Of a DNA stretch of 40,174 bases, positions 23,139 through 40,174 are shown piece by piece. The stretch spans positions 1-40,174 of IMG/VR virus record IMGVR_UViG_3300006805_000060, one strand, 5' to 3'. The stretch is from a virus. Position 1 is the stretch's first letter, and the number at the start of each line of letters is the position of its first letter. The notes beneath the pieces are model-generated. The model did no database searches. It saw nothing but the letters and a program-made list of their open reading frames with translations, and had not been told where the DNA came from. The position numbers were made by a program, and so were the translations under genes.

Positions 23139-23164
23139 ACTTGTTGATTACATAAAGAAATAAC

Positions 23165-24187: not shown

Positions 24188-24211
24188 TTTACTGCATCAT
24201 TACCAAAATAA

Positions 24212-25078: not shown

Positions 25079-25085
25079 GGACAAA

Positions 25086-25307: not shown

Positions 25308-25310
25308 ATT

Positions 25311-25532
25311 ATGAAAAAAACGAACACCTATGTAATACTAAAAACGGTATTGTATAGAACAATTTCTGTTAGTTTGAATTGGTTGGTATTGTATTTACTT
25401 ACGGGCAGTGCATCCAAATCATCACAATATGCAATTTATTTGTTTATTTTACATACAGTATTGTATATGGCATATGAAAGAATAGTTACCATATATGAGG
25501 AAAAGCACATTTATGGTGTTAAAGATGAGTAA
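25311..25532 (+). CDS. Small membrane protein, DUF2061-like (73 aa)
   Basis: Begins MKKTNTYVILKTVLYRTISVSL and holds two hydrophobic helices, about 8-29 and 40-55, with LLTGSASKSS between them and a C-terminal YERIVTIYEE. The layout K.xxxxxxRxxxxxxxx...YLLTGS...H..xYxxYER fits the small two-helix DUF2061 family. Its function is unknown. It overlaps the next gene by eight bases. Confidence 0.6.
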   Translation: MKKTNTYVILKTVLYRTISVSLNWLVLYLLTGSASKSSQYAIYLFILHTVLYMAYERIVTIYEEKHIYGVKDE

Positions 25533-26079
25533 TATGGTCGATGGAGTGCATTATAAATTTTTGAATTATCCGAAACTGCCTGATGAATTGGAACAACTGT
25601 GTTTGGACCAACTAAACAAACCAGAATTTTTCATATTTGATTTGAGTAAAAATGAAATCATCACACGAAAAGTTATAATAGACGGCGAAGTTGTTGTAAA
25701 AAAACAATGCACATTTGAAGTTTTTTCTGCACCAACAGAAGTAATTGATTGGTTATTGTCAAACAAAATAATTGATAGTATTGATACAGAAGTTGTAGTA
25801 CAAAGAAGTTATAATGGCACTGCATTATTTCCACATACAGATAATCCGGAAAATTATAACAACAACCTTACCAATTTACACAAACGAACAACTGCATTAA
25901 ATTATTTGTTGTCAGAATCTGGTCCAACAACATGTTTTTATAACACAAATAATCTGAATGATATATTGGAGTCAGTATTAATACCAAAAAGTGTATGGCA
26001 CACATTAAATGTCAATCATCTACACGGTGTAGAGAATATAGAATTTGATAGAATAAGTTTAAGTATTACACTAAATTGA
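25525..26079 (+). CDS. 2OG-Fe(II) oxygenase-like protein (184 aa)
   Basis: The double-stranded beta-helix motifs are recognisable: HTD at residues 104-106 (FPHTDNP) gives the first His and Asp, and His167 with Arg176 (HLHGVENIEFDRISLSI) gives the distal His and the 2-oxoglutarate-binding Arg. TALNYLLSESGPTT lies between, as in this superfamily. Such enzymes hydroxylate proteins, nucleic acids or small molecules. Phages carry several; the substrate cannot be read from sequence. It lies among virion genes and just before the accessory block, so it may act on either. ATG 25525 is chosen because it overlaps the previous stop. Confidence 0.65.
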   Translation: MSNMVDGVHYKFLNYPKLPDELEQLCLDQLNKPEFFIFDLSKNEIITRKVIIDGEVVVKKQCTFEVFSAPTEVIDWLLSNKIIDSIDTEVVVQRSYNGTALFPHTDNPENYNNNLTNLHKRTTALNYLLSESGPTTCFYNTNNLNDILESVLIPKSVWHTLNVNHLHGVENIEFDRISLSITLN

Positions 26080-26090
26080 GGAATAAAATT

Positions 26091-26774
26091 ATGCAAGAAA
26101 ATAAACAAATGATTACACTAGATCCAACCGATTTAAAAAGTGTTGAAACAATTATCTCGAAAATTGAAGATAGTTATTTTGAAATTCCTTTTGGTAACAC
26201 AGCATTTCAAACCAAGGCGTTTGTTGTTGCAGCATCAATTACACCAGAAAGAGCTTATCGAGCGGTTGGATTGCAATTGATGTCTATTTTATCGAGTTTG
26301 AGAATGACTATCATAGACAAAAAAATTGCAAAAGTTAAACTAGAACAAAAGAGGGAAAAATTAAAAAGTCCCGATTTAGATAAATTTGAGAAAGAGATTT
26401 TAGAACTCGAAATTTTAATGGAAACATCAGGTCATCGACATGGCGAAAAACTCATAAATGACTCACTTCAAGAATTTAATGTATTATATGCAGAATTCAT
26501 GAAGTTACCTAAGTTTACACGTGAACAGTTTGAAAGTGCAGAAGAAAATTACTTCTCACAATCATTAGACCGCCAAGCAAGAGGCATTTCGGGTGCGGTA
26601 GAATCTCTGATAAATATGCATGATGATATGCCAGCCTTGGCATCATATAAAGAAAATGTGAAATTGATTGAAAACCTAGATACACAGACGCTAAAGAATT
26701 TGCGTCTGAATATGGACAATCAAATGAGTCGAGTTATAGAAAAAGAACAGTTGAAACTCTCAACCAAAACATAA
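26091..26774 (+). CDS. Helical/coiled-coil protein (227 aa)
   Basis: ATG 26091 preceded by tgagga; the frame upstream has only TTG. The protein is helix-rich with a long heptad stretch (DKKIAKVKLEQKREKLKSP then KEILELEILME). The C-terminal part has NLRLNMDNQMSRVIEKEQLKL. A structural or chaperone role for the adjacent virion gene is possible. No family is recognised. Confidence 0.65.
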   Translation: MQENKQMITLDPTDLKSVETIISKIEDSYFEIPFGNTAFQTKAFVVAASITPERAYRAVGLQLMSILSSLRMTIIDKKIAKVKLEQKREKLKSPDLDKFEKEILELEILMETSGHRHGEKLINDSLQEFNVLYAEFMKLPKFTREQFESAEENYFSQSLDRQARGISGAVESLINMHDDMPALASYKENVKLIENLDTQTLKNLRLNMDNQMSRVIEKEQLKLSTKT

Positions 26775-26785
26775 AGAAAAAATAA

Positions 26786-27922
26786 ATGCCATTAAATTCA
26801 TCTGGCCCGTTAAGTATGGGTGGTCCCGTAGCCGGACAATCGATTGATCTTGAATTGGGTCGAGCAGCCAGTACTCAAATTGGTCTTGATGAAACACCAG
26901 TTCGTACATTGGCTGGAGTTCTTTCTGGAACTATTGGATTGTCAAATTTTTATGGCAAAGCTAATGCTTTAGATTATGGATTTCTTGGGTCTGGAGGAAT
27001 CGATCCACAGTCTGTTAATAAAATAACATATTCAACAAATACATATGCAAATTCAGGACTTACGTCAAAGATCGAGCTGTACGGTGTGGCTACAGTGTCA
27101 TCACGTGACGTAGCATTATGGTGCGGTGCCGTATCCAGTAGCGGTAACACTAAAAGTTCAGAATTATATGGTATTTCGTTAATTACATCCACATTTATCG
27201 ATCCTGCTCAAACATTACCTTATATTATTGCTTTTTCGGGAGGATTGTCGTATTTAGATATTTCTGGTTATTCATTTGGTGGCATGTATTCAAACGTGCA
27301 ACGCACCGCTACGGCACGTATTGATTTTTCGAGTTATACATCCATAAATTTAGGCAACTATTCCATAACTAATAGTTTTGGAAGGGATCCGTGTTGTTTT
27401 CACACCAATAATTATGGATATGCAACATTGGGTGGACTGAATCAGGGTACGGCAGCAGCCACAGCTTCAGGCAAATTTTCTTTTTCGACTGAAACTTGGG
27501 CAAATGTGTCATCTGGTGGTTTCCCAACACAAAATACTACAAATATTTATTATGATCGAATTCGTTGTTCCTCAATGTCCAAAACTTCGGCTTATGGAAT
27601 GGCGCAATACAACTATTATACAGGTTCACAACCATATCAACTATTGAATTATTCTGCAAAATTTTCATTTAGTACAGAAACATACACAAATCCTTTTACT
27701 CCGGCATATGTGCCTGCTGGCCAAGGAATTAGTACACCAACTCGCGGTTATTTTGGTAATGGCCAAGGCCAAGGTAACAGCGATGCGCCACCCAATAGCG
27801 TATCCGCCATCATGTTAATATATGCAACAGACACAATAGCAACAACATCAATGTACCAAGCCTCAACCCAGACGTATTTTCAGACCGGTTCAGGCATGAG
27901 TCAGAATATATCCTTAATTTAA
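26786..27922 (+). CDS. Virion protein / putative tail-fibre adhesin (378 aa)
   Basis: The N-terminal 60 residues (LNSSGPLSMGGPVAGQSI, LELGRAASTQIGLDE, then IGLSNFYGKA) are the 'xxGPISxGGxTxGxSIxxElGxxxxxxISLxxxxVRxLxGVxSGxIxxSNxYGK' module that opens many phage structural proteins. The rest is Gly/Ser/Thr/Tyr-rich and repetitive beta: FSTETWANV, FSTETYTNPF, FSFSTET recur, suggesting a beta-propeller or solenoid tip. A role in receptor binding or decoration is likely but inferred. Confidence 0.75.
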   Translation: MPLNSSGPLSMGGPVAGQSIDLELGRAASTQIGLDETPVRTLAGVLSGTIGLSNFYGKANALDYGFLGSGGIDPQSVNKITYSTNTYANSGLTSKIELYGVATVSSRDVALWCGAVSSSGNTKSSELYGISLITSTFIDPAQTLPYIIAFSGGLSYLDISGYSFGGMYSNVQRTATARIDFSSYTSINLGNYSITNSFGRDPCCFHTNNYGYATLGGLNQGTAAATASGKFSFSTETWANVSSGGFPTQNTTNIYYDRIRCSSMSKTSAYGMAQYNYYTGSQPYQLLNYSAKFSFSTETYTNPFTPAYVPAGQGISTPTRGYFGNGQGQGNSDAPPNSVSAIMLIYATDTIATTSMYQASTQTYFQTGSGMSQNISLI

Positions 27923-27924
27923 TC

Positions 27925-28164
27925 ATGAACGATTATGCACTTGTTTATTGGGATAAAAATACAAAAAAACCAATAACACATTATTTAAATGAAAACGTAA
28001 CTAATATTTTAGATTTTGCAAATTATGTGGTGCCACAAGGCACCACATTTAATGTGGTACATACGAATGACCTGGCGCACAAAACGATTCCCAAAAAAAT
28101 TGAATTAGCACTCACCGATGGTGAATCCAAGTCTTTGTTTTTTGAATATTTCAAGGCACTATAA
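27925..28164 (+). CDS. Small unknown protein (79 aa)
   Basis: Starts two bases after the fibre-like gene. Soluble alpha/beta product (MNDYALVYWDKNTKKPITHY) with the end DGESKSLFFEYFKAL. As it follows a putative fibre gene directly, a small fibre-assembly chaperone is possible, though nothing in the sequence proves it. The stop overlaps the next ATG (TAATG). Confidence 0.6.
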   Translation: MNDYALVYWDKNTKKPITHYLNENVTNILDFANYVVPQGTTFNVVHTNDLAHKTIPKKIELALTDGESKSLFFEYFKAL

Positions 28165-28748
28165 TGCTTTATGATGTTACACAATTTAAAGATGAAACAG
28201 GAAAAATGCAACATTCTTTGGTGACAAAAGATGTTGTTTTATGCCTTTGTTATCAACCACCAGGTTTACAATACAATCACCCCAATAGAAATTTAGGAAC
28301 TTTCAGTCAAGCAGTTTACGTAGTTTCTGGAGATTATACTTGTAAACCAGCATATCGAGCATCCGGTTTGAATCGAGATACAGTAGAAACTGATATCATG
28401 CATATCAAATCTGGTGATTTTGTGGATCTCGAACATCTACAAAACATCACATTACATGACAAAGCTGGATCTGATGGTGTGATGATGATACATATTAATC
28501 CTATGTCAGGTGAACCCGAATTCAATTTTGAATTTATTGGACCAAATGAATCTAGAAAAATTATTGCAACCGATAAACGTAAAATTGTCTTTTGTTTCAA
28601 AGAAGAAGTCTATGTGAATGGTGTTGAACTGTCGCTTCTCAATAGAATGCGATTAAAATATGATAGTGAAGTAGTAATTGAAACTGGCGTTAATGGTGCC
28701 TGCTTAGTTATGGAGAAACGAATTGCAACAAAACCAATTACCATATAA
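28164..28748 (+). CDS. Cupin-like protein (194 aa)
   Basis: Two beta-sandwich-like halves: AVYVVSGDYTCKPAYRA with HIKSGDFVDLEHL and IVFCFKEEVYVNGVELSLLN with YDSEVVIET. The pattern 'voltage of strands, then Gly, then His/Glu-rich turn' fits a double cupin. Unlike classical cupins the His pair is not HxH, so metal binding is uncertain. It is coupled to the gene before it and overlaps the adenylating enzyme after it by 26 bases, tying it to that operon. Confidence 0.5.
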   Translation: MLYDVTQFKDETGKMQHSLVTKDVVLCLCYQPPGLQYNHPNRNLGTFSQAVYVVSGDYTCKPAYRASGLNRDTVETDIMHIKSGDFVDLEHLQNITLHDKAGSDGVMMIHINPMSGEPEFNFEFIGPNESRKIIATDKRKIVFCFKEEVYVNGVELSLLNRMRLKYDSEVVIETGVNGACLVMEKRIATKPITI

Positions 28749-30240
28749 TTGCCTAACACACTTAGATCAAATCTCTCAACAGTTAGGCACCCAAAATAAA
28801 ATTGCAGTAATCGATAATACAAATTCAATCACATACAGTGAATTGTACACCAAAGCAAAACGTTTTGGTTGTTCACTGTTGAACTGCAATATCAAACATC
28901 AAGAACATATCATAATATGTCTCGAAGATTCTATAGATTTCATTGTTTGTTTTCTGGGTTCAATCTATGCAGGTATAATACCTGTTGTAATTAATCCCAA
29001 TTTATCAAATTCAGAAATTCATCAAATTGTAGTCAAAAGCCCAGCCAACAATGTCATTTGTTCCAAATCTAGGGCCAATGATTTTTGTCAGAAAGAATGG
29101 AATCTGATATTAATTCCTGATGTTATCACTGGCAATTCAGTTGACAGATTCATTGGTCAACAATATAATACAAAAATTGAACCAACTGACACATATGAAA
29201 ATGATGATGCTTTTATTTACTGTACATCTGGTACCACAGGACACATAAAACTGGTGGTACATTCTCAAAAAAGTATTTGTGGCACCGGACTGCAATATGG
29301 TACATCAGTAATATCATTGAATAAAAATGATGTTGTATTTTCTGCTGCGAAACTATCTCATGCATATGGTTTAGGAAATTCCATTTCAATTCCTTTTGTT
29401 CACGGATGTACCGTCGTATTGGAATCAAGTCTGGCCACGCCAGAAACTATAGTAAAACTTATAGAAACCAATAAGGTTACCACTTTCTGTGGAGTACCGA
29501 GACACTTCACCTCTTTATTAAATACATCCAGGCAGTATAGTTTGGATACATTAAAAGTTTGTTTATCCGCAGGAGAATCTTTACCACAAAAAGTAGGTAA
29601 GGACTTTACAAATCGATACAAGTGTGTTATAATCAATGCAATAGGTTCTACAGAAATATTAGGTTTTGCCTTGTCCACAAGATCAGACGACATTGCTTAT
29701 GGTAGTACCGGCACGGTAGTTGATGGTTGTCAAGTGAAATTAATGGACGACTACGGTAATGAAGTGAAACAGGGACAACTAGGTGAATTATTTGTACATA
29801 GTGAGTATTCATCTAAAAAATATTGGAATGATGAAAGTTCAACACAATATACTTTCATCGATGGTTGGATAAAAACTAACGATATGTATATGGTGAATAC
29901 AAATGGTCATTATGTGCATAAAGGTCGAAAAAATGATTGTATGAAAGTTAATGGTTTATATGTTTCATTGACTGGATTAGAAAAAGATTTATATGAGGTG
30001 GATTCGATTTTAGATGCAGCTGTGGTTTTTGTTGAGAATAAATACGGATTGAATAAGATTGAATTGCATATAGTATTAAAAGATAATTTCAATGAGGATA
30101 TAGAATATGCAAACATACAACAACATTTCAACAAACACGAATTGTTATCAAACCGTCCTTTTACCATAAAAATTATAGACGCATTGCCTCGTACACAATC
30201 TGGTAAAATCAAGAAATATGTTTTATTAAATAGAGATTAA
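28723..30240 (+). CDS. Acyl/aryl-AMP-forming ligase, ANL superfamily (505 aa)
   Basis: A complete class I adenylate-forming enzyme. Core motifs: A3 YCTSGTTGHIK at 166-176, A5 GSTE at 308-311, A7-like TND with Asp387, A8 GRKNDCMKVNG at 401-411, and A10 RTQSGKIKK with Lys495. The segment FSAAKLSHAYGLGNS (206-220) is close to the FSAAKLFFAYGLGN block of benzoate-CoA ligases, hinting at an aryl or short carboxylic acid. Such enzymes make an acyl-AMP and pass it to CoA or a carrier; no carrier domain is fused. Start TTG at 28723 is preceded by ggaga at six bases. I do not know T4-like phages with this gene. Confidence 0.9.
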   Translation: MQQNQLPYNCLTHLDQISQQLGTQNKIAVIDNTNSITYSELYTKAKRFGCSLLNCNIKHQEHIIICLEDSIDFIVCFLGSIYAGIIPVVINPNLSNSEIHQIVVKSPANNVICSKSRANDFCQKEWNLILIPDVITGNSVDRFIGQQYNTKIEPTDTYENDDAFIYCTSGTTGHIKLVVHSQKSICGTGLQYGTSVISLNKNDVVFSAAKLSHAYGLGNSISIPFVHGCTVVLESSLATPETIVKLIETNKVTTFCGVPRHFTSLLNTSRQYSLDTLKVCLSAGESLPQKVGKDFTNRYKCVIINAIGSTEILGFALSTRSDDIAYGSTGTVVDGCQVKLMDDYGNEVKQGQLGELFVHSEYSSKKYWNDESSTQYTFIDGWIKTNDMYMVNTNGHYVHKGRKNDCMKVNGLYVSLTGLEKDLYEVDSILDAAVVFVENKYGLNKIELHIVLKDNFNEDIEYANIQQHFNKHELLSNRPFTIKIIDALPRTQSGKIKKYVLLNRD

Positions 30241-30241
30241 G

Positions 30242-31357
30242 ATGAAAATATTCAATCCCGTAATTATGCAACCTGTTGCACAACCATTAAATGCTGCCTT
30301 GCAACTAGCTGGTTTGGTACCAACGGGTGTAGAAGATGCAGATTTTGTATATTTTGGTAAAAATAATAATTATGAATCATATAAGATGTTGCCAGAAAAG
30401 TTCACAAATACTGTTTGTTTAGATTTAATGATTAAGTCTAAATTACCAGAATTGTTTAAAGCTGCCGGAATTAATTATATACAATCGGATGTAATAACCG
30501 ATATTAATGTAATTTTGGACTATCCTAGTGATAATGTTTTTATTAAACCTATTGAAGGTGCTTTATCGCGAACACCATATACATTTGTTTATAAAATATT
30601 TACATCTAAAACAGAACTTCTGAATACTATTGATTTGGAATGTCCAGATTTCTTCTCAATGAATGAATTTGGTGTTATTGAATCATCAAAACATATCATA
30701 CAAAAAGCAATAATGCCTGATAGTGAAGGTTATAACTATCAATATTTTGCGCCGGCATATGTTAATGGCCAAGGACAAATCAAAACAGAAGGCATCGGTG
30801 CTTCAAAATTAAAGTTCAACTCATTAAATGATGTCGATGACAAGACATATCCATTACGGTATTTAAAAGAGTTTAGTGTTAGAAATACCGAAGACCAAAC
30901 CAATAAATTTGATATTTTTGGCCAATTACAAAAACTAGTTGATTTTTATTCAATAAAAAATACACCGATGAACACTCAATGGTTGGTTGACACTGATGGC
31001 CAAGCATACATGATAGATTTTGGTTATAACTATCAAAGAGCCTTGTATTGTAATACGAACTTAATAACCACAGAAATGTTTGCAGATAAGTTGCGTTATG
31101 TGTATGATTTACAACCTGATATAAAGCAGCCATTAACTGGTTGGACTGGCGTATTTGATTTAATGATAACTAGTGATAAGAAAACGCTAATTGAATATGC
31201 AAACTTTTTGGGTATACATGTCGCGGAAACATGGGGATCGGCCACAACAGAAAAATCACTGACTGTGCCATTTGTAATAAGAGGTTATTCAGAAGAAGAA
31301 TGTGTAAATAGAGTACAAACTTTGCGTGATTACATTGAAAAAAACACAAAAATTTAA
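30242..31357 (+). CDS. ATP-grasp-like ligase (371 aa)
   Basis: Two ATP-grasp features: FIKP at about residues 100-103 (the ATP-binding Lys) and, at 245-266, TQWLVDTDGQAYMIDFGYN, the late block with Asp and acid residues that bind Mg-ATP. The remainder fits an alpha/beta ligase, though the N-terminal domain is unlike the common families. ATP-grasp enzymes join a carboxylate to an amine or thiol. It lies one base after the adenylating enzyme, so both probably act on one product, for example activation followed by amide formation. Confidence in the fold is moderate; the substrate is unknown. Confidence 0.6.
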   Translation: MKIFNPVIMQPVAQPLNAALQLAGLVPTGVEDADFVYFGKNNNYESYKMLPEKFTNTVCLDLMIKSKLPELFKAAGINYIQSDVITDINVILDYPSDNVFIKPIEGALSRTPYTFVYKIFTSKTELLNTIDLECPDFFSMNEFGVIESSKHIIQKAIMPDSEGYNYQYFAPAYVNGQGQIKTEGIGASKLKFNSLNDVDDKTYPLRYLKEFSVRNTEDQTNKFDIFGQLQKLVDFYSIKNTPMNTQWLVDTDGQAYMIDFGYNYQRALYCNTNLITTEMFADKLRYVYDLQPDIKQPLTGWTGVFDLMITSDKKTLIEYANFLGIHVAETWGSATTEKSLTVPFVIRGYSEEECVNRVQTLRDYIEKNTKI

Positions 31358-31371
31358 GAGGGAAATTTGAA

Positions 31372-33417
31372 ATGAAGAAACAATTAACAACTTTGTTATT
31401 ACTTTGTCCGATTATGAGTTTTGCTGAGCAAACTTTGGATCCTGTGGTTGTGACTGCCACGAGGTATGAATTGTCAAATTTGGAAACACCGGCCGCGATA
31501 ACAAAAATTACGTTACCGGAGATTGGACTTAAATTCACACCAACAGAATCTTTAAATCGAGTGGTGGGTCTCTCAATTACCGATACTAATGCAACTGATA
31601 TTCGATTAACTACTCGGGGTTTTGGTTCAAGGACACCTTTCGCAACTCGTGGTGTACAAATTTATCGCGATGGCCTTCCTATTACATTTGCTGATGCAAC
31701 TGGCCTAACATCGATTGTTGACATGAACGTGATTAGTAACATCGAAGTATTAAAAGGTCCTTTTAGTAGTATGTACGGCAGTAGTTCTAGTGGTGTCGTG
31801 CAATTCTTCACCGAAGTTCCTTCCAAAGAATCTGAGATTTCCGGTGGAACATTGTTTGGTAGTTTCAACACTCAACAGAACAATATCAAATATTCTGGAA
31901 TATCAGGAAATGTCAAATACTTATTGAATCAATCCAATTACACATCTGATGGGTACAGAGATTTTTCAAAAATTAAACGAGATCAAAGTACGGGCAAATT
32001 ATGGTTCGATATAAATGATTATACACAAATTGAGATTGGTGTGAATTCTTATCGTCAAAATAACCAAGATTATGGTAACGGTAACGGTGGAATTACACTA
32101 TCTCAATTTAGAACTAATCCATATAGCGTGGATGCATCCGTATACAATATTAATAGTTGGAAGTCTATCGATCAACAAGATGCAAATTTAAAAGTCACAC
32201 ACTTAATCAACAAGGATAATTCTTTAGTGTTCGCTGTCTATGGTGGAAATAGAAATCAAGAACAACTCAGTCCAACTACAGAAAGTAATACTCTTTTGAG
32301 AACTTCTAGTGGTCTACTCAAAACATCTAGAGAATTTTGGGGCACAGAAATTAGATTAGATCATTCTGGTATTGTGGTGAACAAAAAATATAATGTATCA
32401 TTTGGTTTAACTGCACAGTCACAAACAGATTCGGTTACAAATGGTAAATGGATGGTTAGTGGTGTACAATTGAACGGTAATACATTAACACGAAGTGTAA
32501 ATCAAAATGCATTAACTATGGGTCAATTTGTGCAAGGTCGTTTATCTGTAAGTGATACCGTCGATTTACATGCCGGTGTTAGAAGAACTACCATGGGTAT
32601 GGATTTTATCGACCACTTGACTGATATTGCTAATGGCGGTAATAACAGTGGAAGTGTAAATTATAATAGTTCAAGTCCATCAATTGGCATTGTTTGGAAA
32701 GCAACACCGAATACCAGTGTTTATTCAAGTTATGCAAAAGGACTTGAGTTACCAACGTTCAATGAAACGCAATTTGCTAGTGCTATATCGACCACAACAC
32801 CAAATACAACATTGCGACCAAGTAAATCCGACAACTTTGAAATTGGTGCAAAATCGTATGTAACAACAAACACATATGTTACGACATCTATTTTTCAATC
32901 AAAAACTAATAATGAGATTGTAATTACACAAAACGCACCAGGTTTCAAAATCTATGGTAATCTAGGTTCAACAACAAGACAAGGTATTGAATTTAGTATC
33001 GACTCCAAATTGCCTCTGGGATTTGGTTTCTATAATGCATTCTCATATACTGAAGCAACATTTGATGATACAGGTAAAACTTTGCCAGCAGTACCAAAAA
33101 CTCTAGCATTTACTGAATTGAGTTGGACCTATGCACCAAAGAACTTCCGTGCATCCATTGAAGCAGTACATGCAGGTAAAGTTTACGGTGAAGTAGACAA
33201 TTCAATTTCTGATGATGGTTATACCATATTCAATCTGAAAACTACACTGAAACAAAAATACAACAAATTGACAGTAACTGAATATTTTGCAGTCAATAAT
33301 ATCAATGACACTGTTTATGTTGCCAACTTGCGTACTGCTGCACAATATGGTCGATATTATGAATCTGGTGTTAAACGCAATGTAATGTTAGGTGTGATGG
33401 CATCTTATGCTTTCTGA
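31372..33417 (+). CDS. TonB-dependent outer-membrane receptor (681 aa)
   Basis: Signal peptide (residues 1-18, cleaved after SFA), TonB box DPVVVTATR (23-31), then the plug domain with TRGFGSRTPFATRGV and KGPFSSMYGSSSSGVVQF, and a barrel of about 500 residues with repeated aromatic/Gly strand ends. It finishes in GVMASYAF, with the terminal Phe needed for barrel insertion. It appears intact and full length. These receptors import siderophores, cobalamin, haem and other scarce ligands with energy from host TonB/ExbBD. A phage copy is rare in my knowledge. Fourteen bases after the ATP-grasp gene. Confidence 0.93.
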   Translation: MKKQLTTLLLLCPIMSFAEQTLDPVVVTATRYELSNLETPAAITKITLPEIGLKFTPTESLNRVVGLSITDTNATDIRLTTRGFGSRTPFATRGVQIYRDGLPITFADATGLTSIVDMNVISNIEVLKGPFSSMYGSSSSGVVQFFTEVPSKESEISGGTLFGSFNTQQNNIKYSGISGNVKYLLNQSNYTSDGYRDFSKIKRDQSTGKLWFDINDYTQIEIGVNSYRQNNQDYGNGNGGITLSQFRTNPYSVDASVYNINSWKSIDQQDANLKVTHLINKDNSLVFAVYGGNRNQEQLSPTTESNTLLRTSSGLLKTSREFWGTEIRLDHSGIVVNKKYNVSFGLTAQSQTDSVTNGKWMVSGVQLNGNTLTRSVNQNALTMGQFVQGRLSVSDTVDLHAGVRRTTMGMDFIDHLTDIANGGNNSGSVNYNSSSPSIGIVWKATPNTSVYSSYAKGLELPTFNETQFASAISTTTPNTTLRPSKSDNFEIGAKSYVTTNTYVTTSIFQSKTNNEIVITQNAPGFKIYGNLGSTTRQGIEFSIDSKLPLGFGFYNAFSYTEATFDDTGKTLPAVPKTLAFTELSWTYAPKNFRASIEAVHAGKVYGEVDNSISDDGYTIFNLKTTLKQKYNKLTVTEYFAVNNINDTVYVANLRTAAQYGRYYESGVKRNVMLGVMASYAF

Positions 33418-33727
33418 TATAAATTTAAATGCCATAGAATTCTGTGTGGGTGTGGTATCAAATAACCACACAGAATTCAGAGTTAAGATTGGCCGAACGC
33501 GCGAGTTGTGTGACTCATCCAAAACATTAATTTTTTATAAAAAATCTCCATATATGTTTGATTGTGCATACAAATCATTAGCATATTTTAAGATAATAAT
33601 ATTAGACACCCTATATAAAAATGAATTAAAAAATTTTGGTGATGATGAATTGCCAGAAAAGGCCGGTCGGTATTTTAATCACCGATTTAATTTAAATTGT
33701 CCAACTATACCTTATACCAAACTATAA
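33407..33727 (+). CDS. Unknown protein (106 aa)
   Basis: Starts inside the last codons of the receptor gene (11-base overlap). Soluble product (LNAIEFCVGVVSNNHTEFRV) with several Cys, Phe and Tyr residues and a basic end. The start overlap and TAATG junction to the next gene tie it to the accessory operon. No family is recognised. Confidence 0.65.
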   Translation: MLSDINLNAIEFCVGVVSNNHTEFRVKIGRTRELCDSSKTLIFYKKSPYMFDCAYKSLAYFKIIILDTLYKNELKNFGDDELPEKAGRYFNHRFNLNCPTIPYTKL

Positions 33728-34068
33728 TGAATTATCCAGAAATATCTTTAGGCATTGTACACAATGTGTGGACTCGACAGATGCATTTCCTAAAAAAAGG
33801 AGATCACGAAACGCAGCATACACACCAATTTGACCATACTACATTGTTAGCTAAAGGTTCTTTAGAGGTTGTGGTTAATGGTAAATCTACCATTTTTAAA
33901 TCTCCACATATGATTTTTATTTCAAAAGACCACGATCATAGTATGACTGCATTAGAAGATGATACAGTGGCATATTGTATTCATGCTATGACTGCTCACG
34001 ATGGCATTAATGAATATACCAAACACGTAGACGACCTTGTTTCTCCTGATATGATACCCAACAAATAA
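33727..34068 (+). CDS. Cupin protein (113 aa)
   Basis: ATG at 33727 overlaps the previous stop; a TTG 30 bases earlier is less likely. Cupin motif 1 is recognisable: GDHETQHTHQFDHTTLLAKG (25-44) with His31, His33 and a third His37 where the family often has Glu. Motif 2 is FISKDHDHSM. A metal-binding single-domain cupin, of the kind found in phages and bacteria as dioxygenase- or isomerase-like enzymes. Substrate unknown. It is the last gene of the block with the receptor. Confidence 0.75.
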   Translation: MNYPEISLGIVHNVWTRQMHFLKKGDHETQHTHQFDHTTLLAKGSLEVVVNGKSTIFKSPHMIFISKDHDHSMTALEDDTVAYCIHAMTAHDGINEYTKHVDDLVSPDMIPNK

Positions 34069-34071
34069 ATT

Positions 34072-34731
34072 ATGTTTAATTATTGTCCACCTAAAGACTT
34101 GCAAGACCTGAAATCGCAAACCTTCCCTGATGGTAAAAGATATTATACACTGGAAGATGGTACTAAGTTGCCCTCTGTTACCACTGTGCTTGGTGCAAAA
34201 AAGAAAGAAGGTATTCTTGCATGGCGTAAACGTGTGGGTGAAGAAGAAGCCAATCGTATCTCCAGACAAGCCACATCACGCGGTACGAACGTTCATACAA
34301 TTTGTGAACACTATCTCAATAACAAACCAGGTTTCTCTAAGGGCATCATGCCTGACGCTGTGGAGATGTTTAAGAGTATTAGACCAACACTAGATAAGAT
34401 TAAAAATATTCATTATCAAGAAGTTGCATTGTGGTCTAAACAATTGGGTCTTGCAGGTCGTGTAGATTGTATTGGTGAATATGATGGTGTGTTATCATCT
34501 ATTGACTTCAAGACATCCAAGAAGATTAAGAAACGTGAAGATATTCTGGATTACTTTTGGCAGACAACCGCGTATGCATTGATGTATGAGGAACTAGTTG
34601 GTGTTCCTATTCATCAATTGGTTGTTATCATGGCAGTAGAGAATGAACAACCATTGGTGTTCATCGAGAAAACTTCAGATCACATTCAAGGTTTGGTTGA
34701 TGCAATTGCATATTACCGAAAGACTGCTTGA
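34072..34731 (+). CDS. PD-(D/E)XK exonuclease, Cas4/RecB/MGME1-like (219 aa)
   Basis: Nuclease core: RVDCIGEYDG (Asp of motif II) followed by SSIDFKTSKK (Asp-x-Lys motif III) at about residues 130-150. A conserved Thr/Ser-rich start (YYTLEDGTKLPSVTTVLGAK) and RGTNVHTICEHYL (motif I His/Glu helix) are typical of single-strand exonucleases in T4-like phages and cyanophages. Probably acts in DNA recombination or maturation. The -35 hexamer of the tmRNA promoter overlaps its stop codon. Confidence 0.82.
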   Translation: MFNYCPPKDLQDLKSQTFPDGKRYYTLEDGTKLPSVTTVLGAKKKEGILAWRKRVGEEEANRISRQATSRGTNVHTICEHYLNNKPGFSKGIMPDAVEMFKSIRPTLDKIKNIHYQEVALWSKQLGLAGRVDCIGEYDGVLSSIDFKTSKKIKKREDILDYFWQTTAYALMYEELVGVPIHQLVVIMAVENEQPLVFIEKTSDHIQGLVDAIAYYRKTA

Positions 34732-34756
34732 CAAAGTAAAATAAATAGAGTATAAT
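34728..34756 (+). promoter_or_regulatory. Consensus sigma70 promoter of the tmRNA gene
   Basis: TTGACA at 34728-34733, a 17-base spacer and TATAAT at 34751-34756: both hexamers and the spacing are consensus. Transcription would start near 34763, about 20-25 bases before the first recognisable tmRNA element. The -35 overlaps the stop codon of the nuclease gene. Confidence 0.9.
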
Positions 34757-34762
34757 GTAAGT

Positions 34763-35090
34763 TATTGTTGTATGAAGTAGAATGAAAGGTGTTCAAGACG
34801 CGGGTTCGATTCCCGCCGGGTCCACCAAAAGCATATTGGGATCAGGTCACGCTAGAGATAATGCTAAGAGACTACTAGCGGTAAATGTTCCTGTTAAAAA
34901 AACAACTAATATGCTTTTGATGGGCTCGACCAGGTTTCGATTGGGCAATAAGTAAAGATATGGACAACACGACACAGAGAGTCGTAAAAAGTAAAAACTA
35001 GTAAATGCAAACGATAACTCGTTCCGCCAAGTAGCCTAAAAACTACTAGCTGAGGTTTCGCAAGGTGTCCTTATCATCCAATCACCTTGC
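34763..35090 (+). ncRNA. ssrA: Circularly permuted (two-piece type) tmRNA precursor
   Basis: Order is acceptor piece, intervening segment, coding piece. Acceptor piece: T arm GCGGG-TTCGATT-CCCGC (34800-34816), acceptor strand CGGGTCC (34817-34823), A73 and encoded CCA (34825-34827). Coding piece: GGGCTCG (34922-34928), which pairs fully with the acceptor strand and gives the G3-U70 wobble that AlaRS reads. GGTTTCGA follows, as in bacterial tmRNA. P2 forms between 34790-34796 and 34941-34947 (7 bp). A small hairpin at 34969-34985 is probably part of PK1. The resume codon GCA is at 35007 and the tag is ANDNSFRQVA with TAA at 35037-35039. An 8-bp hairpin (35060-35067 with 35083-35090) likely marks the 3' end. 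The exact 5' end is unknown; SmpB is not encoded here. Confidence 0.93.
34827..34918 (+). other. Intervening segment of the tmRNA precursor with closing helix
   Basis: The two tmRNA pieces are joined by a segment whose ends, 34827-34837 and 34908-34918, are perfect 11-bp reverse complements. With G34919-C34826 and A34824-U34921 added, the helix stacks on the 7-bp acceptor stem with one C-A mismatch. Inside lies a second hairpin, CGCTAG with CTAGCG (34850-34855 with 34875-34880). Processing would remove about 94 bases to free the CCA end and the 5' end of the coding piece. Confidence 0.85.
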
Positions 35091-35097
35091 ATAAATA
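35090..35097 (+). promoter_or_regulatory. Possible T4-type late promoter element CATAAATA
   Basis: CATAAATA directly after the 3' hairpin of the tmRNA and about 33 bases before the ATG at 35130 resembles the NATAAATA late element of T4-like phages. The position would suit late transcription of the lysis/replication group downstream. A short motif in AT-rich DNA is weak evidence. Confidence 0.35.
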
Positions 35098-35129
35098 CAT
35101 ACACACAACACACACAATTAGGACTTAAA

Positions 35130-35414
35130 ATGTCACAACCCATGTCTCCATTCCAAATAAGATTGGAATTGTTGAAGATGGCCAAAGAATTATTGGTCGA
35201 TGACTTCAACACAAAAAAAGATGTAATTCAAGAAGTCTGGCAAACTCAAGTGGAATCTGCAAAAATTGCAGGTGCAACATCACCTCCACACCCTACATTG
35301 CCACCATATCCCACAGAAGAAGAAATTGTAAAGAAAGCAGAAGCTCTCAATCAATTTGTTTCTCAAACCACTCCACAACCAGAAATAAAGATCACGAAGA
35401 AATCTAATTCGTAA
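35130..35414 (+). CDS. Conserved small T4-like protein (94 aa)
   Basis: MSQPMSPFQIRLELLKMAKELLVDDF is a beginning I recognise from small proteins of T4-like cyanophages (MSxPMTPFQIRLELLKLAKdi...). An N-terminal amphipathic helix is followed by a Pro-rich linker and an acidic/basic end. Function unknown. ATG follows taggac. Confidence 0.7.
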   Translation: MSQPMSPFQIRLELLKMAKELLVDDFNTKKDVIQEVWQTQVESAKIAGATSPPHPTLPPYPTEEEIVKKAEALNQFVSQTTPQPEIKITKKSNS

Positions 35415-35456
35415 TTGGAGAAAAAGAGGTTAACGTATTTTCGTTAGTCTCCAATC
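35415..35456 (+). other. Stem-loop before the hydrolase gene
   Basis: ATTGGAG (35415-35421) pairs with CTCCAAT (35450-35456), with a nested TAACG...CGTTA hairpin around TATTTT. There is no U-tract behind it, so it is more likely an RNA control or stability element than a terminator. The hydrolase ribosome site (aaggaga) follows six bases later. Confidence 0.55.
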
Positions 35457-35469
35457 AACAAGGAGAAGT

Positions 35470-35970
35470 ATGATGAGAATAATCTTATCCAAAGTTTTGG
35501 CCATTGCCCTATTGGTCACATTAATACCATTACACTCACAAGAACAACCACTACCAACTTCAAAACAAGTTTCAGTAGCATTACAGAGGCAGGTATTGTG
35601 TCTTGCTAAAAATATCTACTATGAATCTGCAATGGAATCATACGAAGGTAAACTTGCTGTTGCACAGGTAACAATCAATAGAACTAACAATTCGAATTAT
35701 CCATCAGATTTCTGTTCAGTTGTATATCAGAAAACTGGTTCAACATGCCAATTCTCTTGGACTTGTCTTAAAGACTTGGATATCAAGAACAAATATGCAT
35801 GGGAAGAATGTTTGATGATAGCAAAGATGGCCTTAACCGATAATAGTTTACATGATGAGCTTGCCAATTCTAAGGCTTTGTTTTACCATGCTACATATGT
35901 GCATCCGGGTTGGACTAACACCAAAGTCGTGATGCGAATTGGTAACCATATATTTTATAGAAAATCATAA
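35470..35970 (+). CDS. SleB-like cell-wall hydrolase with signal peptide (166 aa)
   Basis: The hydrolase_2 (SleB) domain is clear: LAKNIYYESAMESYEGKLAV then AQVTINRTNNSNYP and FCSVVYQKTG with TCQFSWTC. Glu in YYE is the catalytic acid. A hydrophobic start (residues 1-24, MMRIILSKVLAIALLVTLIP) directs export by the host, like secreted or SAR endolysins. It is the likely endolysin or a spore-cortex-type peptidoglycan enzyme. No holin gene is certain nearby. ATG 35470 or 35473; both are near an excellent aaggaga. Confidence 0.85.
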   Translation: MMRIILSKVLAIALLVTLIPLHSQEQPLPTSKQVSVALQRQVLCLAKNIYYESAMESYEGKLAVAQVTINRTNNSNYPSDFCSVVYQKTGSTCQFSWTCLKDLDIKNKYAWEECLMIAKMALTDNSLHDELANSKALFYHATYVHPGWTNTKVVMRIGNHIFYRKS

Positions 35971-36191
35971 TGCCTACAAAGAATGAAATTAGTGAATTTA
36001 GTGATACAATTGAGGAAATCACCAGTCGATTGAGATGTACTCGATTGGATGCAATACTTCATCATTGTGAACAGACAGGTATGGAACTTGATGTGGCATC
36101 AACGTTGATTTCTTCTTCATTGAAATGTAAGATCGAAGAAGAATCACAAGAACTGAACCTGTTGAAGAAGAAATCTAGACTGCCGTTTTAA
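35970..36191 (+). CDS. 33: Late transcription co-activator gp33-like (73 aa)
   Basis: The pattern RCTRLDAILHHCEQTGMELD, STLISSSLKCKIEEES and ELNLLKKKSRLPF follows T4 gp33 (MSYLEATTAFLEE...AKFI...IIEKIQSEAIDENLL). T4 gp33 links the sliding clamp to RNA polymerase at late promoters. The product is shorter than T4's 112 residues, as in cyanophage versions. Support is synteny with gp59 and gp32 downstream, as in T4. Overlaps the hydrolase stop (TAATG). Confidence 0.75.
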   Translation: MPTKNEISEFSDTIEEITSRLRCTRLDAILHHCEQTGMELDVASTLISSSLKCKIEEESQELNLLKKKSRLPF

Positions 36192-36193
36192 TC

Positions 36194-36799
36194 ATGGAAG
36201 AAACAACAGGCTTCGCAGCATTTGCCATGTTTCACGCAATGAAATTGCACTTCACTGGTGATTATGATTATGTGAAGTACCATGGCAAGACTAATGTTTC
36301 TAAAGACACCTTTGCAAACAGGAAAGACAAATACACTTTCTACAAATTGTCACGCAAATATAAACTAGATGACCTAAAAGACTTTTATATTGCAAACTTT
36401 TTGGAGAAGGATGTAAGTTGGATCGGTGATATCTCCAGTGTTGAAGGTGAAGAAAACCTCAAGAAGTGGCAGAAGCGTAGTCAGAGTCTATCATATAGAT
36501 TCGAACAGGACGTTATTGGTCTATTAAACAACATCAATTCACCTAATGAGTTGTTGGTTGTAAATGATGGTCAACATCCACTTCTATTGAATGAGGTAAT
36601 GCAAGGTACTATTGCCATTGAAACACTGGTAATAATGAATGATATTATGAACTTCTTTCCTATGTGGAATAAGAAAATCAATGATACGATTATCTGGCCT
36701 GCATTTAAGAAGAAGTGTGAAAAGTACCTGCCGTTCTTACACTATGATAAGAACAAATTTAAAGTTATATTAAAAGAATGTCTGGCAGAGTACGCCTAA
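36194..36799 (+). CDS. 59: Helicase loader gp59 (201 aa)
   Basis: Matches T4 gp59 along its length: YDYVKYHGKTNVSKDTFANR then KDKYTFYKLSRKYKLDDL, and WIGDISS, against YDVIKYNW...QKRRDKYFFQKLSEKYKLKEL and WIGDIS in T4. gp59 loads the gp41 helicase onto gp32-covered forks. Length (T4 217) and place between gp33 and gp32 agree. Starts two bases after gp33. Confidence 0.9.
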   Translation: MEETTGFAAFAMFHAMKLHFTGDYDYVKYHGKTNVSKDTFANRKDKYTFYKLSRKYKLDDLKDFYIANFLEKDVSWIGDISSVEGEENLKKWQKRSQSLSYRFEQDVIGLLNNINSPNELLVVNDGQHPLLLNEVMQGTIAIETLVIMNDIMNFFPMWNKKINDTIIWPAFKKKCEKYLPFLHYDKNKFKVILKECLAEYA

Positions 36800-36804
36800 A
36801 TAAG

Positions 36805-36833
36805 TTGACACAGGTGATTGCTTGTGTTATACT
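36805..36833 (+). promoter_or_regulatory. Sigma70-type promoter of gene 32 (TTGACA-N17-TATACT)
   Basis: TTGACA at 36805-36810, 17-base spacer, TATACT at 36828-36833. It lies five bases after gp59 and gives gene 32 its own leader of about 60 bases. The gene 32 mRNA ends at the terminator at 37838, so it can be made as a separate transcript. Confidence 0.82.
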
Positions 36834-36900
36834 AGTAGTTGATTATGCAATATGTGAAATAATCCGTTTTATATTCCGTTAATACGAAAGGCAACAAATT

Positions 36901-37809
36901 ATGGCAATTGATTTTTCAAAACTCAAAACATCTTCAGGTAATCTGGACAAACTCACCAAAGCAATCGAAGCACTAAACAGTTCTTCAGATAGCAACGACA
37001 GCAAAGAAAAATTCTGGCGTCCCGAAGTAGATAAGTCTGGCAATGGTATGGCAACAATTCGATTCCTCCCTGCACCTGGTGCTGATGGTGACGATGGTCT
37101 GCCTTGGGTTAAAATCTTCTCACATGGTTTCCAAGGTCCAGGTGGATGGTTGATTGATAACTGTCTGACTACCAAGAACCAACAATGTCCAGTATGTGAA
37201 CACAATTCAACATTGTGGAATTCTGGCATCGAAGCAAACAAAGAAATCGTCCGTAAGCAAAAACGTAAACTCAATTACATTGCTAACGTGTACATCGTTT
37301 CTGATCCTAAGCATCCAGAGAATGAAGGCAAAGTATTCTTGTTCAAATTCGGTAAAAAGATTTTCGACAAGATTAACGAAGCAATGAACCCACAGTTCGC
37401 TGATGAAGAAGCAATCAATCCATTTGATATGTGGAAAGGTGCTAACTTCAAACTGAAGATTCGTAAAGTTGAGGGTTATCAGAACTATGATAAGTCTGAA
37501 TTTGAATCTGCATCACCGTTGAATAGTGATGATGACGAACTGGAAGCAATCTGGAAGATGGAACACTCTCTGTCAGACTTGGTTGGCGACAAAGAATTTA
37601 AATCATATGATGACCTGAAAGGTCGTTTGGATAAAGTTCTTGGTTTGAATGGTGCAGTTATTGCACCAAAGACCACTGTCGAACAGATCAAGGAAGATAA
37701 CCGTGTAATCAGAGACAACCCAGCAGCGAAGCCTGTTGTGTCTCGAACACCAGAAGTCACTGAAGAAGATGATGATATGGCATATTTTTCAAAACTTGCT
37801 GAAGAATAA
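36901..37809 (+). CDS. 32: Single-stranded DNA-binding protein gp32 (302 aa)
   Basis: T4 gp32 family. N-terminal basic/acidic domain, then the OB-fold core with FWRPEVDKSGNGMATIRFLP, the zinc-type Cys pair CPVCEHNSTLWNSG, and KKIFDKINEAMNPQF. The C-terminus is acidic (EEDDDMAYFSKLAEE), as needed for partner binding. Length (T4 301) is normal. It has its own promoter and terminator. Coats single-stranded DNA in replication, recombination and repair, and binds gp59 encoded upstream. Confidence 0.95.
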   Translation: MAIDFSKLKTSSGNLDKLTKAIEALNSSSDSNDSKEKFWRPEVDKSGNGMATIRFLPAPGADGDDGLPWVKIFSHGFQGPGGWLIDNCLTTKNQQCPVCEHNSTLWNSGIEANKEIVRKQKRKLNYIANVYIVSDPKHPENEGKVFLFKFGKKIFDKINEAMNPQFADEEAINPFDMWKGANFKLKIRKVEGYQNYDKSEFESASPLNSDDDELEAIWKMEHSLSDLVGDKEFKSYDDLKGRLDKVLGLNGAVIAPKTTVEQIKEDNRVIRDNPAAKPVVSRTPEVTEEDDDMAYFSKLAEE

Positions 37810-37837
37810 ACTATATTACTCATTCAAGTAAGTTTAG

Positions 37838-37862
37838 AACCCCGCCTAGTGCGGGGTTTTTT
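37838..37862 (+). terminator. Rho-independent terminator after gene 32 (possibly bidirectional)
   Basis: A stem AACCCCGC/GCGGGGTT (37838-37845 with 37851-37858), loop CTAGT, then TTTTTT. The 8-bp GC-rich stem and U-tract are consensus. The minus-strand gene ends at 37865, so the same hairpin may also stop transcription from the right. Confidence 0.9.
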
Positions 37863-37864
37863 GT

Positions 37865-39319
37865 TTATACAACTCTAGTTGAATTGACTATCATACGTTG
37901 AAATGTATCATCTTGATTTCTCACAGAAGGCATCGGTGTATTTCTGGTAGGATTATTCTTCTTATTTACTATGTTATTGTTAACAGTATCTTGTTGTGCT
38001 TTCGAAACACTACTATCGAGATTTAATGAAACATTTTCTTTAATCACCGAATTTAACTTCTGACTAAGCGGTGGTGTCGGTATTGATGGTGTTGATCCTG
38101 ATGTGGCCGGCACGGGTGCAATGTTTGGAGTTGTTGATCCACCGGTTACACCAGCTGGTATTGCAGTTGGTGCAGGTTTTGCCGGTGTCATAGACTTAGG
38201 CAAATATTTATTTTGTTCACCCTGTTTTCGTCGACCTTTTATTATGTTGTCTGCTTCAGACGATACTTGGTTGACCAAAGTTTCTGGTGCTTCTTTTTTA
38301 CCATCAGGTGATACATAAATGCGTTCATTAGTTGCCATACCCAGAACCGTCTTTGCGAACTTTCTAGGATAACCTTTTTTGGCCATCAATTGTTCAACTA
38401 ATTCTGTTTTTTCTTTAATAGCTGCATTTTCAGTTACTAAATTTTCTGCATATATTTTATTTTCATCCGCACTTTCTGGCATCTGGCCAGATAAACCAGA
38501 TGTTTGCTCTGATTGTATTCTAACATTCTGTGCCGTTAATGCTTCTTCGCCACCGCGTTCCTTTATAGATTTTACTCTATTTTCTTCCAAGTATTTGTCT
38601 AAAAAATAACCAATGGCTGCAGAACCAAGCACAGCACCAATTATCCATGCAGTTCCTCCAGCAAGTAATTCTATTAACCAACTTCCGGCGGTGGATAATA
38701 AATTCAATATTGGTTTCAATAAATTTTTCATACTCATCAAATCTGAAAGTGTATCAAAAATAGACTGAAAGAAACCTTTACTTTCTGTTTTTCCTTGTAC
38801 TGATGTTGCGGTACCACCACGAATTACACCCAAAGCTGTCAACAATTCTTTGTGTCGTTTGTCGTCCTCAAGTTTTCTTTCTTCTGCAAAGTTACTTTCT
38901 TTTTCTCTGCGTTTCTTATCTTCATCAAATGTTTTTTTCAATAATGAAACTATACTAATCAATACACTTTTCATACCAGAACTTTCTTGTTCTGATGATG
39001 GCAAAGCTGATATCTTTTTATTTTTATCATTTACATATTTCACACGGCCAGCAAAATTCTCAATATCTTTACGACTTCGGCCAGTCAATTTACCTAAAAG
39101 AGCAGGACCAAGTCGAGAACCACCAGTAAGAACTCTAGCAATGTTCAATGGATCAAACTTTTCTTTGATCCCTTTTATTTTGGCTTGTGTCTTTAATGAA
39201 ACCACCTTTTTGATACCAGAAAAAACTCCAGAACCTTGAATGATTTCATCAGACAACAATGATGACAAAGATTGATTTCTTATCAATCTTGCTTTTTGGT
39301 ATGATAGATTATTGTCCAT
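37865..39319 (-). CDS. Virion/tail-associated protein with coiled coil and membrane-like segment (484 aa)
   Basis: First gene of a minus-strand group convergent with gene 32. The N-terminal part contains basic and helical segments (ARLIRNQSLSSLLSDE, then LTGRSRKDIENFAGR), then a coiled coil (DEDKKRREKESNFAEERK). A hydrophobic stretch follows (SWLIELLAGGTAWIIGAVLG, about residue 230), then a Pro/Thr/Ser-rich linker (SGSTPSIPTPPLSQ) and a short tail with NNNIVNKKNN and DDTFQRM. This mix fits a baseplate, tail-tube or ejected protein; no exact family is known to me. The stop lies seven bases past the terminator. Confidence 0.7.
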   Translation of the reverse strand: MDNNLSYQKARLIRNQSLSSLLSDEIIQGSGVFSGIKKVVSLKTQAKIKGIKEKFDPLNIARVLTGGSRLGPALLGKLTGRSRKDIENFAGRVKYVNDKNKKISALPSSEQESSGMKSVLISIVSLLKKTFDEDKKRREKESNFAEERKLEDDKRHKELLTALGVIRGGTATSVQGKTESKGFFQSIFDTLSDLMSMKNLLKPILNLLSTAGSWLIELLAGGTAWIIGAVLGSAAIGYFLDKYLEENRVKSIKERGGEEALTAQNVRIQSEQTSGLSGQMPESADENKIYAENLVTENAAIKEKTELVEQLMAKKGYPRKFAKTVLGMATNERIYVSPDGKKEAPETLVNQVSSEADNIIKGRRKQGEQNKYLPKSMTPAKPAPTAIPAGVTGGSTTPNIAPVPATSGSTPSIPTPPLSQKLNSVIKENVSLNLDSSVSKAQQDTVNNNIVNKKNNPTRNTPMPSVRNQDDTFQRMIVNSTRVV

Positions 39320-40068
39320 TACTTCTGTGCCCTTTGTGCCTTTGTCATAGGATTAGTATCATCCTCTTTTTTAACATTTGTTGGTGCGTTAGTTGTTTGA
39401 CTATTGATTACAGTATTGTTTATTGCAGATTTTTGTTGTTGTGCATTTAATGATTTTTTAGCATCACTTGCAACAATTGAACCTGAATTTATTGTCTGGC
39501 CAGAAGAATTACCACTTGGTATATTTTGTGGTGCAGTTGGTGTAGATTTTAAATTTCTTGCTCTGTCTTTATCAAGAGCTTCACCAATTTTTTCTGGTGA
39601 ATTATGTGCTCTGTTTCCACCAATTCCCGAATATAGTGACTCACCCTTTTTCAAATTTGATTTTGGTAATTTTTCACCAATCGATCCTTTTTTTATATCA
39701 TATGGTACACCAATGGATGAGAATTCTTTGGATAGTTCTAATATGGCCTGATCTCGTGTTACATTATTTCGGCCGTTCAAATAATCATCTACGAGTTTTC
39801 TTTTTGTTTTTATTATACCCTCTGAGAACAAATAATCTTGTGTCTCTGGTGTCAAGTAAGTATTTTTTGGATCTATTTTTAATTTTTTTACCAACTCTAA
39901 CATAGTTGGAGGAATTATTTGATATCGGCCGACGGTGAACACTGTGGTTGGACCACCGGGTTTTAGATTTGGATTACCTTCTGGAAATTGTTTAGTTTTG
40001 GCAGCATGATTCAAATAATCTGATATTGTCCATGTTGAAAAATTAATAGGTTCACTAGCCGGAATCAT
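39319..40068 (-). CDS. Lysozyme/transglycosylase-like virion protein (249 aa from internal ATG; N-terminus uncertain)
   Basis: Lysozyme-like signature: FTVGRYQIIPPTMLELVKKL then YLTPETQDYLFSEGII, as in tail-associated murein hydrolases that open the wall during entry (GxYQfxPxTl...fxpexQDxla). The C-terminal part is a Ser/Asn/Thr-rich linker with a tail resembling that of the gene at 37865 (INNTVINSQTTN, KKEDDT). ATG 40068 gives 249 residues, but the frame continues without a stop to 40162 and that stretch (EYNAYNRGT and GSN) looks like the N-terminal continuation of the same fold. The true start may be at a non-ATG codon or outside. Overlaps the next gene by one base. Confidence 0.7.
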   Translation of the reverse strand: MIPASEPINFSTWTISDYLNHAAKTKQFPEGNPNLKPGGPTTVFTVGRYQIIPPTMLELVKKLKIDPKNTYLTPETQDYLFSEGIIKTKRKLVDDYLNGRNNVTRDQAILELSKEFSSIGVPYDIKKGSIGEKLPKSNLKKGESLYSGIGGNRAHNSPEKIGEALDKDRARNLKSTPTAPQNIPSGNSSGQTINSGSIVASDAKKSLNAQQQKSAINNTVINSQTTNAPTNVKKEDDTNPMTKAQRAQK

Positions 40069-40174
40069 TTTATTATTAATAGTTCCTCTATTATACGCAT
40101 TATATTCATTGCTACCAAAAGATTTACCGGCAGAAGATTTACTTTCAAATAAAGTAATTCTTTATTCGGTACTA

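Follow-up and report, generated by a model that had tools for sequence, protein, structure and literature searches.

The stretch of DNA analysed here (hereafter the window) is the entire IMG/VR record IMGVR_UViG_3300006805_000060 with 40174 bases, which was assigned to a T4-like phage on account of its RIIA, RIIB, PhoH, exonuclease and gp32-type SSB genes. Between a PhoH-like gene (23486-24187) and a phage exonuclease (34072-34731) lies a block of genes, all of them on the plus strand, as are these two. In order of position they encode a 194-aa protein (25495-26079), which resembles 2-oxoglutarate oxygenases by eye only and has no family match, a fibre-like structural protein (26786-27922), likewise named by eye and without family match, a 79-aa protein (27925-28164), a further 194-aa protein without family match (28164-28748), an adenylate-forming (AMP-binding) ligase of 505 aa (28723-30240), a 371-aa protein (30242-31357), a complete TonB-dependent receptor of 681 aa (31372-33417), a 106-aa protein overlapping the receptor stop (33407-33727) and a cupin-like small protein (33697-34068), the start of which is probably at 33728.

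The receptor and related phage copies

The receptor is encoded by a single uninterrupted frame of 681 aa plus stop, with a ribosome-binding-like site (GAGGG) just 5' of it. Both of its domains passed their Pfam thresholds, Plug with 55.2 bits (cut-off 23.9) and TonB_dep_Rec_b-barrel with 140.9 (cut-off 27), and an AlphaFold2 model built from a 31-row alignment (mean pLDDT 82.4, pTM 0.85) found its best structural match by Foldseek in PqqU of E. coli with PQQ (9c4o; TM 0.87/0.90, E 3e-67), FoxA being the next fold outside PqqU/YncD (E 3e-43). Pfam, model and Foldseek therefore agree on the plug plus C-terminal 22-strand barrel that characterises TonB-dependent receptors. The initial annotation had reported an intact receptor of this type on a phage genome, and with the full frame, the Pfam plug and barrel and the model this observation is confirmed. 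The signal peptide (approximately residues 1-18), the TonB box (VVVTAT, residues 25-30) and the terminal aromatic residue (F681) named there were all seen by eye, and the three phage copies, namely those of the window and of the contigs L089 and L006, resemble each other at the protein start, around the TonB box and in the last residue.

These two contigs were retrieved from a collection of viral contigs by alignment-based queries, L006 in the first and L089 in the second scan with the receptor alignment; the receptor as a single-sequence query gave no match in this collection. L006 was recognised as a phage contig by a tail-fibre-assembly protein and a phage glycosyltransferase family. L007 and L008 carry receptor pieces at contig ends, and L007, with an integrase adjoining, looks by eye like a prophage edge and was set aside. 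In the collection named ‘phages’ five records matched, and those examined were not true phage receptors: L003 (CAKLQH020000002.1), labelled as Acinetobacter phage, is bacterial (Acinetobacter) chromosome in the stretch seen, and L005 is just a 1.5-kb wastewater contig. This verdict covers L003 and L005 of the five, among which are also a second MD-2021a record and two SJ46 records.

An exchangeable cassette

L089 is part of a 28167-base contig and has the same gene order as positions 25311-37809 of the window: an unknown, an oxygenase-like, a second unknown and a fibre-like gene, two small genes, the AMP ligase, the 371-aa protein and the receptor, followed by the 106-aa protein, the cupin, the exonuclease and onward to gp32, with some genes extra to the window, e.g., a small outer-membrane-type gene. 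Identity between the two phages is 64% for the receptor, 49% each for the 371-aa and 106-aa proteins, 85% for the cupin-like protein, 74% for the 194-aa protein preceding the ligase, 42% for the 79-aa protein and 34% for the fibre-like protein. For the receptor dN is 0.275 and dS 1.39, that is a dN/dS of about 0.2 from one pair with dS near saturation, which denotes purifying selection; the exonuclease gave similar values (0.207 and 1.72), and ligase (0.293/1.85) and cupin (0.101 and 2.07) were compared in the same way. With dN far below dS, the receptor has been preserved at the protein level ever since the two phages separated, and as a cell-derived gene (see the trees below) under purifying selection, judged from this one pair, it is a candidate auxiliary metabolic gene, which would in addition change host metabolism during infection.

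That the gene is a contaminant or an assembly chimera, a possibility raised in the initial annotation, is contradicted by the independent contig L089, which has the same block with identical gene junctions around the receptor. The related gene set in L006, the purifying selection and the even composition (GC 0.34-0.36 at the receptor gene and 0.30-0.40 across the window, without a compositional jump) speak against it as well, so that its probability is negligible.

The extent of the block follows from the near-identical phages L127 and L128. Their DNA is 84-96% identical to the window in pieces covering 16739-24060 and 34064-40174, with no homology between these points, and their exonuclease protein is 99% identical. 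Both are devoid of the block and have 2.2 kb in its place, which in L127 (7910-9979) encode one 689-aa repeat protein with a match to DUF6242. Positions 24061-34063 (plus strand) are therefore an exchangeable cassette, bordered in or beside phoH upstream and just before the exonuclease start downstream. Other phages have fibre-like and oxygenase-like genes (named by eye) at this site. Of 211 exonuclease relatives in the viral contigs, 80 were retained as loci; a single one of these, L197, contained the receptor, and this is the contig of L089, though many of the 80 are too short upstream to judge its presence, L127 and L128 being loci that span the interval. Taken together, the receptor block is an authentic, selected and swappable phage cassette and not an assembly error.

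PADLOC gave no match for five proteins of the cassette. The T4 late-promoter motif TATAAATA was not enriched (1 observed, 4 expected), and scans for sigma-70 promoters and terminators remained at chance level overall.

Origin and host

A tree was built from 44 receptors, its bootstrap not being fully settled. In it the three phage copies formed one clade (100/100) on a stem of 0.8 changes per site, and the sister group consisted of Methylophilaceae and one more genome (97/93); a larger quick tree, which carries a long-branch warning, agreed on this placement. The phylogeny suggested in the initial annotation for tracing the donor thus led to the PqqU lineage and a sister position to Methylophilaceae, but to no nearer donor in the samples searched: neither the class sample (26/369 genomes matching at E 1e-60 or better) nor the order sample (79/399 at 1e-100 or better) contained a nearer source. 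Receptor relatives at 1e-60 or better occur in 111/187 Methylophilaceae genomes. The loci compared were the best 80 of 572 for genomes in general and the best 30 of the 111 matching genomes for Methylophilaceae, both selected for likeness to the phage proteins, and duplicates (L001, L090-L094) as well as partial sequences (L005, L007, L060) were excluded from the alignment. Methylophilaceae receptors, e.g., that of Methylovorus mays (L009), are the nearest cellular relatives, with at most 39% identity, and lie in another gene neighbourhood.

Directly after the exonuclease the window encodes a phage tmRNA (34714-35099; Rfam RF01850, the permuted model starting at 34766). It is of the permuted betaproteobacterial type, as is that of L089 (9680-10049), with 110 and 125 bits, respectively (cut-off 84), and a betaproteobacterium is the most likely host. 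Since this tmRNA type passed the cut-off in only 1/187 Methylophilaceae genomes, Methylophilaceae are no more than a candidate host family. A 12/12 sigma-70-like promoter was noted at the phage tmRNA (34728-34756).

The binding pocket

PqqU was characterised by a signature of Y99 (or F/W), R304 and R365; three arginines contact the carboxylates of PQQ, and a charge swap at R365 slows PQQ-dependent growth in E. coli (accessible text of PMC12124388). Pocket residues, numbered after E. coli PqqU, were compared in an alignment of 123 cellular relatives, the rows of which were chosen for likeness. R365 is present in 123/123 cellular rows and replaced by V, V and S in window, L089 and L006, where the surrounding stretch is without arginine. 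Q84, also present in all 123 rows, is T in each phage, Q121 (118/123) is L, L and P, and R536 is replaced by F, Y and Y. R304, found in all cellular rows, is retained in all three phages (R294 in the window), as are Q308 and K274, and the aromatic residue at Y99 is kept as F in the window (F90) and in L089 and is V in L006. Hence one of the three PQQ-carboxylate arginines is left. Over the whole protein, 52 of 83 columns conserved to at least 97% in cells were kept and 14 were lost in all three phages. The aligned Methylophilaceae differ from the phages in keeping R365 and Q84 throughout (31/31); at position 274 all 31 have V, although they are the nearest relatives, and the phages share K with most other cells.

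The window receptor reached 325.4 bits (E 7e-97) against NCBIfam NF041535 (PqqU), below the cut-off of 1200, which is evidently strict, since the Methylovorus relative too obtained only 567.2 bits. It resembles PqqU (YncD; 9c4o, 6v81) in fold over the whole length, in plug plus barrel and in R304, Q308 and K274, and differs from the E. coli protein, with about 27-29% identity, in the four changed positions named above, in being phage-borne and in its gene neighbours. With R365 gone and a single carboxylate arginine remaining, it should not be filed as PqqU: judged from its residues, the phage receptor is of the PqqU lineage but is not PqqU by the published signature, and it may bind an acid.

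These substitutions bear on the reading that the phages encode a working PQQ importer, which would supply the cofactor during infection to the quinoprotein dehydrogenases of a host resembling methylotrophs. The nearest family is indeed PqqU, both in NF041535 and in 9c4o, K274 and R304 are retained, and in Methylovorus the receptor relative adjoins TIGR04557 (quinoprotein-associated SoxYZ-like carrier), TIGR04559 (quinoprotein relay metallohydrolase) and a TonB gene, so that a link of the family with PQQ is plausible there. However, the loss of R365 in all three phages, a negative outcome for this reading, and the changes at Q84, Q121 and R536 make it distinctly unlikely.

Distribution of constraint

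Loop, strand and plug segments were set by hand from the AlphaFold2 model. Between window and L089 the outward loops are more conserved than the strands (130/169 against 200/327 identical, P 0.0004), and the plug is identical at only 70/119 positions (58.8%). Among 1135 cellular pairs with a comparable overall identity the lowest plug identity was 67.2%, and in none of them did the plug fall below the strands, unlike in window and L089. Loops at least as conserved as strands are common in cells (654/1135 pairs), a gap of at least 15 points being found in 34, and the comparison of window with L006 shows no difference between loops and strands (P 0.92). Constraint on the outward face is therefore no weaker than in cells, while the plug is freer; as plug identity lies below that of all cellular pairs, constraint on gating looks relaxed. 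This pattern agrees with a binding role and makes transport questionable in spite of the TonB box.

Such a pattern would be expected if display outweighed transport, as in a model of receptor replacement in which the phage barrel displaces or outcompetes the host receptor, for TonB or for assembly, and blocks or alters later adsorption. The porin Lc/NmpC of phage PA-2, which is phage-encoded, would be a precedent for receptor replacement. It also fits that the receptor gene travels in a fibre-type cassette, and that PqqU of E. coli is a phage receptor, which the phage protein SIP-1 is predicted to block (accessible text of PMC12124388). On the other hand, the TonB box is retained, enzymes travel along with the receptor, in L006 together with a permease, and the fibre-like protein is 34% identical between the phages as opposed to 77% in the receptor loops, so fibre and receptor do not co-vary. 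Moreover, SIP-1 and Llp bind their receptor from the periplasmic side and are not receptors themselves (PMC12124388, accessible text). Replacement was therefore considered unlikely, and an exclusion factor of the Llp/SIP-1 type, a periplasmic receptor binder, was dismissed, as the product here is itself a 681-aa receptor. An outer-membrane barrel with conserved outer loops could also serve as a decoy that is released with vesicles or debris and traps phages or bacteriocins, but a decoy would need neither the TonB box nor the enzyme neighbours, both of which are retained, and this use is very improbable.

Genes accompanying the receptor

The gene at 28723-30240 matched the AMP-binding family (Pfam PF00501, 3.6e-67), with benzoate-CoA ligases as the nearest relatives: it obtained 368.5 bits against TIGR02262 (benzoate-CoA ligase; cut-off 375.25) and matched 2v7b with 2e-82. 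With BadA/2v7b it shares the aryl-CoA-ligase family, the adenylation motifs (segments AYGLGN and GSTE) and the C-terminal catalytic lysine motif (PRTxSGKIKK); it differs in scoring just below the TIGR02262 cut-off, in being phage-borne and in its P-loop: neither the window version (TSGTTGHIK) nor that of L089 (TSGTTGQTK) has the proline of the published motif (accessible text of PMC8388817). As benzoate-CoA ligases are its best relatives, its substrate may reasonably be guessed to be an aromatic acid. The ligases of Methylophilaceae reach about 30% at most against the phage ligase. The L089 ligase has 452 aa compared to 505 aa in the window, one part being missing; near this part, inside the window gene, a 12/12 sigma-70-like promoter was noted (29141-29169).

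The initial annotation had spoken of neighbouring ligases in the plural, which holds for this gene; for the adjacent 371-aa protein no family or structure match was found. A Pfam search of three members of its family, carried to E 10, brought up no ATP-grasp domain; in hhalign one of four comparisons with ATP-grasp was collinear but weak (P 0.0033, probability 9.7%), with controls at P 0.45 and 0.73, and a structure prediction reached pLDDT 40. From this resemblance an ATP-grasp-like enzyme is possible, if weakly so. It was found in 0/187 Methylophilaceae and 0/398 phylum-sampled genomes, in a search run without positive control, and in the viral contigs alignment queries matched and the single-sequence query did not. 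As no relative was found outside the phages of window, L089 and L006, any role assigned to it is a guess.

In L006 only three window proteins have relatives, namely the receptor (50% identical), the 371-aa protein (24%, E 7e-17) and the cupin-like protein (39%, E 3e-21), the last of which matched Cupin_2 in the window at 1.7e-4, below cut-off. Adjoining the L006 receptor is TctA, the inner-membrane permease of a tripartite tricarboxylate transporter (E 1.8e-101), and near it are genes for a radical SAM protein and for a protein of 253 aa that looks secreted and matched no family. Neither the window nor the part of L089 obtained yielded a recognisable inner-membrane permease. Sulfotransferase-like and APS-kinase-like genes also lie around receptor and 371-aa protein in L006 (1599-9515).

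Proposed function

The reading preferred here, to which we assign a probability of roughly 0.45, is that the receptor, coupled to TonB, takes up a carboxylic ligand that is not PQQ, or PQQ bound differently, and works with the aryl-CoA-ligase-like enzyme. In the infected cell the phage receptor would be placed in the outer membrane, where, driven by host TonB, it would capture a carboxylic acid distinct from PQQ, or else PQQ in a different pose. The benzoate-CoA-ligase-like enzyme would then adenylate the imported acid, in L006 TctA would move it across the inner membrane, and the phage would thereby gain an uptake route during infection. TctA beside the L006 receptor and the conserved TonB box favour such a nutritional role; against unchanged transport stands the plug, which diverges unusually fast. 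The absent P-loop proline of the ligase in both phages and the permease not recognised in the window or in the L089 part obtained also weigh against this reading. The initial annotation had proposed a superinfection block, a change in nutrient uptake or a decoy as purposes; kinship with PqqU, the altered pocket, the gene set shared with L006 and the exchangeable cassette are additions to it. A wider formulation, which we offer only tentatively and regard as rather doubtful, is that T4-like phages of betaproteobacteria possess an exchangeable acquisition cassette, consisting of a re-tuned receptor, a ligand-activating enzyme, a partner protein, a cupin and, in one lineage, a permease, for a ligand not taken by the host's receptor of the same lineage.

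The position of the block, behind the fibre-like gene in window and L089 and behind the tail-fibre assembly gene in L006, would alternatively suit a cassette in the service of the virion, in which the enzymes modify the fibre-like protein or make its ligand, the latter to be recovered or bound by the receptor. The fibre-like plus oxygenase-like genes (by eye) of other phages at the same site would agree with this. However, the fibre diverges fast and the enzymes do not, and a virion-serving cassette is thus quite improbable.

Phages use TonB receptors as entry doors; here, phages own such a receptor, keep it under selection and give it a binding site that departs from that of its cellular relatives. 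As a kind, phage TonB receptors have already been reported: a SusC-type receptor in marine megaphages (Mar_Mega_1, LR745206) was put forward as an auxiliary metabolic gene that serves the uptake of carbohydrates (accessible text of PMC9723777), and the only strong full-length match to the window receptor in a viral structure library was A0A8D9FQQ5, named SusC, from an uncultured marine phage. The megaphage SusC is likewise a phage-encoded TonB-dependent receptor; the window receptor differs in belonging to the PqqU lineage (12% identity, TM 0.68), in residing in a T4-like phage and not a megaphage, and in its linked ligase and cupin set, none being mentioned for SusC in the accessible text of PMC9723777. 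The PqqU-lineage copy with altered pocket is hence a new variant, and no publication on a phage-borne receptor of the PqqU type was found in a literature search that fell short of most subscription papers. For E. coli PqqU a structure, a growth assay and a phage assay are at hand, which make the ligand and the question of feeding versus guarding directly testable, and the set of receptor, 371-aa protein and cupin marks a protein family worth assaying.

Two further genes of the window may be mentioned. A second outer-membrane-type protein, with signal peptide, small barrel and C-terminal F (by eye), is encoded at 22517-23095 and in L089 at 10053-10619, the L089 copy having a weak match to OMP_b-brl (25.9 bits; cut-off 28.7); relatives occur at differing places in 12 of the 80 kept phage loci (of 211). 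Beside RIIA/RIIB, at 12329-13477, lies an ATPase gene of a PHROG family termed ‘porphyrin biosynthesis’, which is presumably CobS-like.
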